The position numbers and the translations under genes were made by a program. The notes under the pieces were generated by a model that was given only the letters and a program-made list of their open reading frames with translations, was not told the origin of the DNA and searched no databases. From Desulfobacterales bacterium (GTDB taxonomy: Bacteria; Desulfobacterota; Desulfobacteria; Desulfobacterales; UBA5852), in contig JASJBQ010000176.1 in the NCBI GenBank assembly GCA_030066455.1, positions 1 to 9,904 of the forward strand: DNA of 9,904 nt, written 5' to 3'. Within the stretch, counting starts at the first letter, position 1. Every line of letters begins with the position of its first letter. This document shows positions 4,268 to 8,911 of the stretch, one piece after another.

Positions 4268-4312
4268 CAATTTTGTATTAATAACTCATCATAAATACAA
4301 TATTGCAATATT
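4268..4312 (+). promoter_or_regulatory. Candidate tandem enhancer for the glnB-amt sigma-54 promoter
   Basis: Two 15-bp sites lie 30 bp apart. CAATATTGCAATATT at 4298-4312 fits the pattern CAAWWTTGNAATWTT fully. CAATTTTGTATTAAT at 4268-4282 fits 13 of 15 positions. The downstream site sits in a 24-bp dyad (4294-4317) with 11 of 12 base pairs, including a perfect 14-bp core. Site centres are about 120 and 150 bp upstream of the predicted transcription start, which suits an enhancer-binding protein acting on sigma-54 polymerase. The sequence does not resemble the enteric NtrC consensus (TGCAC...GTGCA). The matching pair before glnD supports function. Binding by a specific regulator is inference. 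Confidence 0.55.
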
Positions 4313-4352
4313 ATATTGGTTGGCAACGACCGAACAGCTTGTGCCTTAACTC

Positions 4353-4367
4353 TTATATTTAATATAA
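4353..4367. repeat. Perfect AT-only 15-bp palindrome upstream of glnB
   Basis: TTATATTTAATATAA is a perfect odd-length palindrome centred on T4360, about 66 bp before the predicted glnB transcription start, between the candidate enhancer and the -24 element. It could be a third regulator site or part of a flexible loop region. Palindromes of this kind are easily produced by AT-rich sequence, so function is uncertain. Confidence 0.35.
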
Positions 4368-4380
4368 TTTCAATATTTTG
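4368..4380 (+). promoter_or_regulatory. Possible IHF-type DNA-bending site
   Basis: TTTCAATATTTTG matches the IHF consensus WATCAANNNNTTR at all but the second position. It lies between the candidate enhancer and the sigma-54 promoter, where IHF commonly bends DNA to bring activator and polymerase together. In such AT-rich DNA a one-mismatch hit may be chance. Confidence 0.3.
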
Positions 4381-4399
4381 TCGTATTTTTTTGCCCCGG

Positions 4400-4415
4400 T
4401 GGCACGCCCCTTGCC
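4400..4415 (+). promoter_or_regulatory. Sigma-54 (RpoN) promoter of glnB-amt
   Basis: TGGCACGCCCCTTGCC matches the -24/-12 consensus TGGCACGNNNNTTGCW at every position but the last. The invariant GG (4401-4402) and GC (4413-4414) have the required 10 bases between them. The predicted transcription start is about 4426, giving a leader of about 69 bases before glnB. Sigma-54 control of glnK/glnB-amt operons under nitrogen limitation is well established in proteobacteria. Confidence 0.9.
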
Positions 4416-4494
4416 TTTCCTATCTCGCGAACTGGATCCCGGGAGTTCAAATCCAAACGACTGAATCTCAACCGACACGGAAAGGACCGCAGCC

Positions 4495-4833
4495 ATGAAA
4501 AAGATCGAAGCCATCATCAAGCCCTTCAAGCTGGATGATGTCAAAACGGCACTCAACCAGATCGGGGTCAAAGGCATGACCATCTGCGAAGTCAAGGGTT
4601 TCGGCCGCCAGAAAGGACACAAGGAAACCTATCGGGGCGCTGAATACCAGGTGGACTTCGTCCCCAAGGTCAAGATCGATCTGGTCGTCGACGCTGAATT
4701 GAGCGACCAGGTCGTGCAGACCATCAAGGAAAACGCTTCCTCCGGTAAAATCGGCGACGGCAAGATCTTCGTGCTTCCCGTGGGCGAGGCCATGCGGATT
4801 CGCACCGGCGAAACCGGCAAGGAAGCGATCTGA
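4495..4833 (+). CDS. glnB: Nitrogen regulatory protein PII
   Basis: This is a 112-residue PII signal protein, exactly the family length. As a trimer it binds ATP/ADP and 2-oxoglutarate and relays nitrogen status to GlnE, Amt and usually NtrB. Visible landmarks are KGFGRQKGH (34-42, with Gln39 for Mg-ATP/2-oxoglutarate), the T-loop with [10 protein letters not shown] (46-55) and uridylylation site Tyr51, the B-loop SGKIGDGK (83-90), and RIRTGE (101-106). Asp54 after Tyr51 is GlnB-like; E. coli GlnK has Asn there. The amt-linked position is typical of GlnK, so the name GlnK would also be defensible. The start has AAAGGA at 4481-4486, eight bases upstream. It is the first gene behind the sigma-54 promoter, followed by amt after 123 bp. 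An intact Tyr51 fits the presence of glnD in the same window. Confidence 0.96.
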
Positions 4834-4846
4834 AGATAAACGGATA

Positions 4847-7279: not shown

Positions 7280-7318
7280 TCGGCCGCGGCACGGAAGTGA
7301 TGGACGGGCGGACATCCT

Positions 7319-7328
7319 TACAATTTTG
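7319..7328 (+). promoter_or_regulatory. Possible -10 element and CAAWWTTG octamer before the aminotransferase gene
   Basis: TACAAT at 7319-7324 matches the sigma-70 -10 consensus at five of six positions. It overlaps the palindromic octamer CAATTTTG (7321-7328), which also occurs in the two sigma-54 regulatory gaps. The best -35 (GTGATG at 7297-7302, 16-base spacer) is weak, and there is no -24/-12 element here. The 151-bp gap contains no terminator, so read-through from the BKACE gene is equally possible. Confidence 0.25.
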
Positions 7329-7430
7329 TTGAATTCACGGTTCATCACCCCAGACGCATCCGACAGGGTGCCGGCGCCAATCGACCGGGCTTTCAACACC
7401 GCCTTTAGTGAACAGGAGAGATGAGCCGCC

Positions 7431-8765
7431 ATGGAAAGCTGTGACCACGTTTTCTACCGCAACCTCAAAAAAGACTACCCGCTGGCCGACCGGGCCGAGG
7501 GCGTCTACATCTGGGATGCCGAAGGCAAACGCTATATCGACGGATCGGGCGGGGCTTGCGTGGTCAGCATCGGCCACTGCGTCCCCGAAATTCTCGCGGC
7601 CATGGAAACCCAGTTCAAGCGGGTGCCCTTTGTTCACAGCAGCCATTTCACCAACCCGGCCGCCTGCGAACTGGGCGAGCTGCTCCATGCGATGGCGCCG
7701 GATAAATCCCTTAGCCGGACGTATTTCCTGTCCGGCGGCTCGGAGGCCGTGGAATCGGCGGTCAAACTGATGCGTCAATACTGGCGCGAGGCCGGAAAGC
7801 CCGACAAGTACAAGGTGATTTCGCGCTGGTCGAGCTTTCACGGCAACACCACCGGCGCACTGGCCCTGGGCGGCCACACCGCCCGCCGCAGCCACTACCT
7901 GCCGATTTTTCAGCATACCCCGCATATCGAGCCGGCCTACTGCTACCGCTGCCCGTTTCAGGAAAAACCGGAAACCTGCGCGCTGCAATGCGCCGAAGCG
8001 CTCGAGCGTTGCATCCTGCACGAGGGTCCCGAATCGGTGGGCGCCTTCATCGCCGAGCCGGTGGTGGGCGCGACGGCCGGGGCGGTCGTGCCCAGGGACG
8101 GCTACTGGCAGCGCATCCGCCAAATTTGCGACGAATACGAAATCATACTCATTGCCGATGAGGTCATGACCGGCATCGGTCGCTGCGGCCGCAATTTCGG
8201 CATCGAGAACTGGGGCGTCGTCCCCGACCTGATCGTGATGGCCAAGGGCCTGAGTTCCGGCTATACACCGCTGGGCGGGGTCATGGTCAAGGACGAGATC
8301 CACACGACCATCAAGAACGGCTCCGGGGTCTTTGTCCACGGCCACACCTACGGACAGAACCCGCTATCGACCGCCATCGGCGCCGCGGTCCTGCGCTACA
8401 TCAAGGCCAACGACCTCGTCGCGCGCGCCCGCCAGATGGGGGCCTACCTGATGGAGAGGCTGTCCGTCCTCGAGGCTCAGGAAATCGTGGGCGAAATTCG
8501 GGGCATCGGACTGTTTGCCGGCATTGAGCTTGTGCGCGACAAGGCCACCCGCGCCTGGTTCGAACGCGATCTCAAAGTCAATCTCCAGGTGGCCAACCAG
8601 GCGTTCGAACGGGGCCTGATCACCTATCCCGGCAACGGCGGCGTCGACGGCATTCACGGGGACCACATTCTCCTGGCGCCTCCGTTCACCATCACCGAGG
8701 AACAGATCGACGAGATGGTGGACATCCTCGAGGCGGCCATCGCCCACGTGACCCGCACCCTATAA
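7431..8765 (+). CDS. Class III PLP-dependent aminotransferase with a cysteine cluster
   Basis: This is a 444-residue fold-type I, class III (omega-type) aminotransferase. It probably moves an amino group from an omega- or beta-amino compound to a keto acid. PLP-site landmarks are SGGSEAVESA (101-110), the aromatic-His-Gly FHG (136-138), AEP (208-210), ADEVMTGIGR (242-251) with Asp243 binding the pyridine nitrogen, Lys272 (MAKGLSSGY) forming the Schiff base, and Thr306 in HGHTYGQNP for the phosphate. Residues 171-187 carry a cysteine pattern CX2CX8CX3C, reminiscent of a metal site. The start is ATG 7431, with AGGAGA at 7414-7419, 11 bases away. An ATG at 7421 is out of frame and stops after seven codons. 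It lies between the BKACE gene and glnD. Substrate cannot be read from sequence; beta-amino acids are suggested by the BKACE neighbour. Confidence 0.9.
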   Translation: MESCDHVFYRNLKKDYPLADRAEGVYIWDAEGKRYIDGSGGACVVSIGHCVPEILAAMETQFKRVPFVHSSHFTNPAACELGELLHAMAPDKSLSRTYFLSGGSEAVESAVKLMRQYWREAGKPDKYKVISRWSSFHGNTTGALALGGHTARRSHYLPIFQHTPHIEPAYCYRCPFQEKPETCALQCAEALERCILHEGPESVGAFIAEPVVGATAGAVVPRDGYWQRIRQICDEYEIILIADEVMTGIGRCGRNFGIENWGVVPDLIVMAKGLSSGYTPLGGVMVKDEIHTTIKNGSGVFVHGHTYGQNPLSTAIGAAVLRYIKANDLVARARQMGAYLMERLSVLEAQEIVGEIRGIGLFAGIELVRDKATRAWFERDLKVNLQVANQAFERGLITYPGNGGVDGIHGDHILLAPPFTITEEQIDEMVDILEAAIAHVTRTL

Positions 8766-8807
8766 CCTTCCCCCAAGCGCCGCAGCCCACTCATCGGCCA
8801 CCCGCCG

Positions 8808-8828
8808 CTGTCGGGCCCCTCCCGGCAG
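8808..8828 (+). terminator. Hairpin after the aminotransferase gene, weak terminator candidate
   Basis: CTGTCGGG (8808-8815) pairs with CCCGGCAG (8821-8828), including one T-G wobble, around the loop CCCCT. It begins 43 bases after the aminotransferase stop. No T-run follows, so it is not a proper intrinsic terminator. It may mark the 3' end of a Rho-dependent transcript. Confidence 0.3.
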
Positions 8829-8864
8829 GCCGCGAACCAAACACGCCTATGCACACCAGACTTT

Positions 8865-8911
8865 CAAAATTGTAATTTTTTTTCGCGCTGTAGTCACAAA
8901 TTTGAAATTTT
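8865..8911 (+). promoter_or_regulatory. Candidate tandem enhancer for the glnD sigma-54 promoter
   Basis: Two 15-bp sites, CAAAATTGTAATTTT (8865-8879) and CAAATTTGAAATTTT (8897-8911), both fit CAAWWTTGNAATWTT, the pattern also found upstream of glnB. Each has dyad symmetry: AAAATT/AATTTT around GT, and AAATTT/AAATTT around G. They are 32 bp apart and centred about 105 and 137 bp before the predicted glnD transcription start, almost the spacing of the two NtrC sites at E. coli glnAp2 (about -108 and -140). An enhancer-binding protein is inferred, not identified. Confidence 0.55.

Follow-up and report, generated by a model that had tools for sequence, protein, structure and literature searches.

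The closest published counterpart of the system described here is the predicted regulon of DVU1949, a one-component sigma-54 activator of Desulfovibrio vulgaris that carries a GAFTGA motif. Kazakov et al. 2015 (PMC4641369) predict that it controls nine operons, to which they assign functions in nitrogen metabolism and transport; DVU1231-1233 is one of these, and the regulator's own operon, for which autoregulation was proposed, is another. DVU1231-1233 encodes an ammonium transporter, PII and the PII uridylyltransferase, and Rajeev et al. 2011 (PMC3333781) describe binding of the two-component regulator DVU3220 to that operon by electrophoretic mobility shift assay (EMSA), without DNA-affinity-purified-chip (DAP-chip) data; Kazakov et al. 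2015 (PMC4641369) had no predicted motif for DVU3220. In enteric bacteria, glnAp2 exemplifies sigma-54 promoters of nitrogen genes with two strong NtrC sites upstream (PMC3870243), and the NtrC box is given as the 17-bp sequence TGCACCAnnnTGGTGCA (PMC8743547). Here we analyse a 9,904-nucleotide stretch of DNA from a Desulfobacterales bacterium, probably a sulfate reducer (assembly GCA_030066455.1, contig JASJBQ010000176.1, positions 1 to 9,904 of the forward strand; the whole stretch is referred to as the window), in which the gaps before glnB and before glnD each hold two 16-bp dyads upstream of a predicted sigma-54 promoter. The dyad pairs are probably tandem enhancers for a sigma-54 activator of ammonium assimilation, and the most likely reader is a one-component GAF-AAA+-Fis paralogue of NifA that occurs in most of the relatives searched.

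A preliminary description of the window had reported the four sites as copies of a 15-mer, CAAWWTTGNAATWTT, which is exact at 4298-4312, 8865-8879 and 8897-8911 and carries two mismatches at 4268-4282. With at most two mismatches allowed on both strands, this 15-mer has 10 matches in the window versus a mean of 0.17 and a maximum of 3 in shuffled sequence (0 of 200 shuffles reach 10). When a motif was learned by expectation-maximisation from 24 sigma-54 promoter upstream regions of 12 relatives, with both window promoters excluded, one 16-bp palindrome was obtained, ATTACAAWWTTGTAAT, which carries 13.1 bits against an AT-rich background. The sites are sound but their extent was misjudged: the 15-mer spans only the centre and right arm of the dyad, and as a motif it is superseded by the element learned from the relatives' promoters. 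Alignment with L001, from the closest genome found (G001, a metagenome-assembled genome of the Desulfobacterales, an order in the Thermodesulfobacteriota; GlnE identity 85%), reveals both glnB sites as conserved blocks that reach left of the 15-mer. The dyad is centred on the WW of the octamer CAAWWTTG. The dyads and promoters of the window are as follows, with distances counted from a first T of TGGCAC set, by convention, at -26:

4264..4279 (no strand): dyad centred at 4271.5 (about -154), putative distal enhancer site for glnB; 13.4 bits; block conserved with L001
4294..4309 (no strand): dyad centred at 4301.5 (about -124), putative proximal enhancer site for glnB; 13.7 bits; conserved with L001
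4400..4414 (+ strand): predicted sigma-54 promoter of glnB (-24/-12 type), TGGCACGCCCCTTGC; strict pattern match, conserved in L001
7317..7332 (no strand): fifth, solitary dyad, before the aminotransferase gene and absent from the preliminary description; 11.0 bits
8861..8876 (no strand): dyad centred at 8868.5 (about -141), putative distal enhancer site for glnD; 15.0 bits, the window's best match; distance equal or almost equal in relatives
8893..8908 (no strand): dyad centred at 8900.5 (about -109), putative proximal enhancer site for glnD; 10.3 bits; distance equal or almost equal in relatives
8984..8998 (+ strand): predicted sigma-54 promoter of glnD, TGGCACAACAATTGC; strict pattern match

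These five dyads are the only ones in the window that score at least 10 bits, whereas 300 shuffled windows contained 0.013 on average and never more than 1; elsewhere the window scores 6.8 bits at a position overlapping the proximal glnB site and at most 3.2 bits at all others. Two matches of at least 10 bits did not arise in any of 2000 dinucleotide shuffles of either the glnB or the glnD gap. The preliminary description had cautioned that its pattern was derived from the same sites it was meant to explain, a concern that is lifted by the model trained without the window, which ranks the four sites among its five best window matches. The four tandem dyads are a real sequence element. The spacings of 30 and 32 bp given earlier for the copies are correct, and the earlier distances hold roughly, with the sites lying slightly farther from the promoters at the positions listed above. 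The two predicted promoters, each -24/-12 type and downstream of a site pair, are conserved in relatives and are indeed the sole matches to the strict sigma-54 pattern in the window. The restriction of CAAWWTTG to intergenic DNA failed to hold within the window, as one of its six matches (8121-8128) lies inside the aminotransferase gene at 7431-8765; another (7321-7328) falls in a third gap.

The dyads recur upstream of glnD in most of the relatives searched. Of 126 relatives, 114 yielded a GlnD, and the glnD statistics use the 104 upstream regions of at least 200 bp. A site of at least 10 bits is found in 79 of the 104, versus a mean of 3.4 and a maximum of 9 in shuffled DNA of equal dinucleotide content, and 45 hold a pair of such sites 28-34 bp apart (shuffle mean 0.01, maximum 1). 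Excluding the training genomes leaves 93, of which 68 have a glnD site and 38 a pair. Neither of the two outcomes that the preliminary description had named as refuting its proposal was obtained: the orthologous upstream regions carry the motif, at a frequency well above that of shuffled DNA. Geometry was assessed at a looser cut of at least 7 bits in the 44 genomes where both promoter and pair could be placed. Of these, 29 show a spacing of 31 bp; measured from the first T of the promoter, the distal centre falls at -115 to -118 in 32 genomes and the proximal centre at -83 to -87 in 34. At the glnB promoters of the training set, the pair is mostly positioned near -126/-96, about one helical turn farther out than the glnD pairs. 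The window's own pairs, with spacings of 30 and 32 bp (about three helical turns) and a near-fixed distance from the promoter, fit the arrangement of a sigma-54 tandem enhancer, or upstream activator sequence (UAS) pair. The sites of E. coli glnAp2, at -140 and -108, are close in geometry to the window's glnD pair. The dyads, their conservation, their near-fixed geometry, their target genes and their association with the candidate family described below can all be read from the genomes themselves.

To define which promoters carry the dyad, all matches of a plain sigma-54 pattern, TGGCAYRNNNNTTGC, were scanned in two genomes, G003 (38 matches) and G005 (41 matches), with one match (G005:C66:202862) examined for pairs only. 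The reversed pattern matches 14 and 11 times, respectively, so some of the plain matches are chance. Dyad pairs stand beside 7 of the 79 matches (3 of 38 in G003 and 4 of 41 in G005), and, judged by protein starts, the paired promoters belong to glnB, glnD and a glutamate-synthase-like gene in both genomes and to an amt in G005. A single weak site (9.1 to 11.4 bits) accompanies four more of the plain matches, including one before an amt in G003. In the two genomes scanned, the dyad marks nitrogen-assimilation promoters and not sigma-54 promoters generally. The glnD promoter of both G003 and G005 heads the gene series glnD-amt2-glnB2-glnA. The earlier label of a ‘PII regulon’ is too narrow, as this series reaches glnA and as the motif also stands, in relatives, before glutamate-synthase-like genes and a further amt, before nifA in two genomes and, often, before the gene of the candidate regulator itself. 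The expectation that nifH would be a target was disappointed, since the motif scan revealed no dyad at the nifH promoter of G003 or in the region before nifH of G042. At the nif-linked nifA of G001 (L366:1938-1983), a pair 30 bp apart is located about 123 and 93 bp before the sigma-54-like promoter TGGTATGTTGTTTGC, and the nif-linked nifA of G004 (L365:2681-2696) has one 13.1-bit site with a looser promoter-like match about 94 bp downstream of it. These sites suggest that nitrogen-assimilation control feeds nifA, forming a cascade into nitrogen fixation comparable to that of Klebsiella, in which NtrC drives nifLA.

The candidate activator is an enhancer-binding protein of about 505 residues. 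Among 20 regions inspected in relatives around their glnB, glnD and glnA genes, 5 have its gene next to glnA, and in four of the five a dyad precedes the gene. GAF, Sigma54_activat and HTH_8 domains were found in all three gln-linked proteins scanned. A match of E<=1e-115 is present in 104 of the 126 relatives (at most 12 candidates scored per genome); these matches are mostly full-length and 61-75% identical, whereas other full-length matches mostly show 36-45% identity. In 18 of the 97 genomes having both genes, the candidate lies within 12 kb of glnD (one of the 18, in G085, is only 53% identical), compared with about 0.6% per genome expected by chance for a 4.2-Mb genome and with 0 of 91 genomes for a control response-regulator family. 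In 45 candidate loci inspected by eye from protein starts (1.5-kb flanks), glnA, glnD, amt or a glutamate synthase gene adjoins the candidate in 10, and no nif gene was recognised there. A site of at least 10 bits is present within 350 bp before the candidate's own gene in 60 of 97 genomes. A blastp-defined recount over all fetched loci gave an own-gene site in 60 of 111 family genes, distant homologues included, versus 2 of 34 other activator genes, and these two are the nif-linked nifA genes of G001 and G004. In 30 of the candidate's own upstream regions, the sites are mostly single and no sigma-54-like promoter was seen; repression of a sigma-70 promoter is therefore as possible as activation at this gene.

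The preliminary description had read the sites as those of a distinct enhancer-binding protein acting on PII genes, and this interpretation is supported. The NtrC equivalog model TIGR01818 was searched in 11 relatives, where it gave 54-71 hits per genome when 56-66 of 56-245 candidates were scored; among the candidates scored, none passes the cut-off of 558.6 bits in any of the 11, the best reaching 500.7, which makes a distinct protein likely. The operators differ as well, the enteric box being the 17-bp TGCACCAnnnTGGTGCA and the dyad here the 16-bp ATTACAAWWTTGTAAT. A pattern scan of the window returned no TGCAC-N7-GTGCA, and the reading of the enhancers as NtrC boxes was set aside because no box of the TGCACCAnnnTGGTGCA type was found there; the single copies of GCAC-N7,8-GTGC (at 6345) and of GCAnnAnnnTnnTGC (at 4760, within glnB) both lie away from the promoters' enhancers. 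The upstream activator sequence of NifA is TGT-N10-ACA. A NifA-box reading was likewise rejected, as this sequence is absent from the 260 bp upstream of either window promoter; one copy occurs before nifH of G042. The candidate shares the domain plan of NifA and scores near the NifA cut-off, but lacks NifA's location among nif genes; the nif-linked paralogue is a separate gene, about 40% identical, that adjoins nifH in G001 and G003. Against the 528.85-bit cut-off of the NifA model TIGR01817, scores of 510, 525.3, 537.8, 533.8 and 535.6 bits were obtained among the gln-type proteins (loci L223, L222, L207, L201 and L212) and of 534.2, 518.7 and 516.8 bits among the nif-linked proteins (L366, L365 and L199). 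Three of five gln-type and one of three nif-linked proteins therefore pass, and TIGR01817 fails to separate the two groups.

The DVU1949 regulon resembles the present one, as far as its published description goes, in its one-component enhancer-binding protein, its own-gene site and its amt-PII-glnD target. DVU1949 belongs to the order Desulfovibrionales, whereas the window is from the Desulfobacterales, and the likeness is one of description. The iorAB neighbours that the published account gives for DVU1949 were not recognised by eye in the candidate loci read here. DVU3220 acts on the same kind of operon in a sulfate reducer but is a two-component regulator, whereas the candidate is a one-component protein. 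Apart from the two Desulfovibrio papers, no earlier description of the dyad operator was found in the literature, most subscription papers being outside the search.

In the mechanism that we propose, nitrogen scarcity would lead the enhancer-binding protein to switch on glnB-amt and glnD-amt-glnB2-glnA. Two dimers, separated by about three turns and lying about 110-155 bp upstream, would occupy a single face of the helix and would seed an AAA+ oligomer that, upon looping of the intervening DNA, contacts the closed sigma-54 polymerase and opens the promoter. The nitrogen signal might be PII or 2-oxoglutarate acting at the GAF domain. In this scheme, the binding and the looping are inferred, as are the nature of the nitrogen signal and the sign of the autoregulation.

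Several observations weigh against assigning the dyads to the NifA-like protein. No glnD site of at least 10 bits is present in 18 of 87 orthologue-bearing genomes, and the co-occurrence of site and orthologue is weak: a glnD site accompanies the orthologue in 71 of 89 genomes and occurs in 7 of 14 genomes without it (p 0.04, with the two contig-end orthologues of G080 and G113 counted as present; p 0.06 as first counted), a statistic that ignores kinship. The seven genomes with a glnD site and no detected orthologue are G004, G025, G029, G044, G060, G078 and G084. At most 26 candidates were scored in each of G004, G025, G029 and G044, and some of the seven gaps may reflect fragmented assemblies, as the contig-end pieces in G080 and G113 illustrate. 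Specifically in G060, a 6.84-Mb contig (partly masked) has no orthologue with all 80 candidates scored, and yet dyads of 11.8 and 9.0 bits precede its glnD (L445). Own-gene sites are scarce among homologues of the wider phylum, being present in 1 of 8 that are 68-74% identical to the G001 protein and in 2 of 16 at 58-62% identity; several of these homologues adjoin amt genes despite mostly lacking an own-gene site. Recognition-helix variants were compared with site presence, and were too few for any inference.

The best-surviving alternative holds that a two-component NtrC-type response regulator like DVU3220 reads the dyads and that the NifA-like protein merely accompanies the regulon, which we regard as unlikely. 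Its experimental precedent is the EMSA of DVU3220 upstream of the ammonium transporter-PII-uridylyltransferase operon, and the regulator is described as conserved in several sulfate reducers (PMC3333781). A response regulator with the sequence GSFTGA is present in G002 and G004 and has a match of E<=1e-150 in 100 of the 126 relatives, but its orthology to DVU3220 is presumed and GSFTGA also occurs in 20 of 111 NifA-like genes. Although this regulator was first favoured from the literature, it lost on glnD linkage and co-occurrence. As noted above, it lies within 12 kb of GlnD in none of 91 genomes; moreover, 6 of the 7 genomes with neither the site nor the NifA-like gene have it and 14 site-bearing genomes do not, and its association with the sites (66/84 versus 14/21, a hand count) is not significant (p 0.26). 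Within 12 kb (about 4 kb) of the NifA-like gene it occurs in 3 of 82 genomes with both (G022:C85, G086:C109 and G073:C33), in which a second nitrogen input may come from it. A kinase whose start resembles that of the partner kinase adjoins glnA in G044, where the response regulator's own match is on another contig, but the kinase gene has no upstream site in any of three testable loci.

It is quite improbable that both regulators bind the same dyads, or that different regulators do so in different genomes. Such sharing would agree with D. vulgaris, in which DVU3220 (by EMSA) and DVU1949 (by prediction) are both assigned to DVU1231-1233 (PMC4641369, Table 1), and with genomes such as G060 that have sites and no NifA-like gene; of the two regulators, however, only the NifA-like gene often bears an own-gene site and links to gln genes. 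Finally, the chance that the dyads are merely palindrome-like AT-rich intergenic background is vanishingly small, for although A and T make up most of the dyad, as well as 57% of the glnB gap and 49% of the glnD gap amid GC-rich genes, this reading is refuted by the dinucleotide-keeping shuffles and disfavoured by the near-identical placement across genomes and, in the two genomes scanned, by the confinement to nitrogen genes.

The gene order of the window, assigned from open reading frames (ORFs) and Pfam, is M48 peptidase, glnE, glnB, amt, a BKACE-family gene, a class-III aminotransferase gene and glnD. The genes flanking the dyads are:

4495..4833 (+ strand): glnB, PII signal protein; ORF, Pfam P-II E 2e-33
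4957..6279 (+ strand): amt, ammonium transporter; ORF, Pfam Ammonium_transp E 6e-128
6431..7279 (+ strand): BKACE-family gene, between amt and the aminotransferase gene; Pfam BKACE E 2e-100
7431..8765 (+ strand): class-III aminotransferase gene; Pfam Aminotran_3 E 5e-95
9050..9904 (+ strand): 5' part of glnD, PII uridylyltransferase, continuing past the window end; Pfam GlnD_UR_UTase E 8e-36

The BKACE-family and aminotransferase genes (6431-8765) separate amt from glnD, as they do by protein starts in G003, G004 and G005, where a gene with the same start sequence as the BKACE-family gene occupies that place in the ORF order. From their placement, it looks as if an amino-acid or beta-keto-acid pathway were joined to the nitrogen regulon. 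The fifth dyad precedes the aminotransferase gene and is kept in three of four gene copies examined, with counterparts of 18.5 bits in L099, 16.4 bits in L094 and 13.4 bits in L100 (L099 and L100 are two contigs of G004); none was found in the fourth copy, L096. A pattern scan of the window revealed no recognisable sigma-54 promoter near this dyad.

To our knowledge, the regulation of ammonium uptake and nitrogen fixation in sulfate reducers of this group has been little tested, and the present analysis yields an operator, a geometry, a target list and a protein family for testing. In the published account of D. vulgaris, a relative, by comparison, a response regulator stands without a motif and a one-component regulator has its motif only in a figure. 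A caution follows for annotation, as TIGR01817 does not distinguish the gln-type regulator from nif-linked NifA. For the Desulfobacterales as a whole, we give roughly even chances to a broader proposal: that a NifA-derived one-component activator took over the post of NtrC, retaining the enteric glnA geometry with an unrelated 16-bp AT-rich operator, and that, besides governing glnB, glnD-glnA, amt and glutamate synthase, it activates its own nif-dedicated sister, nifA, in a NifA-on-NifA cascade leading to nitrogen fixation. If true, this would be a clean case of an enhancer geometry that has outlasted a change of both its operator and its activator.

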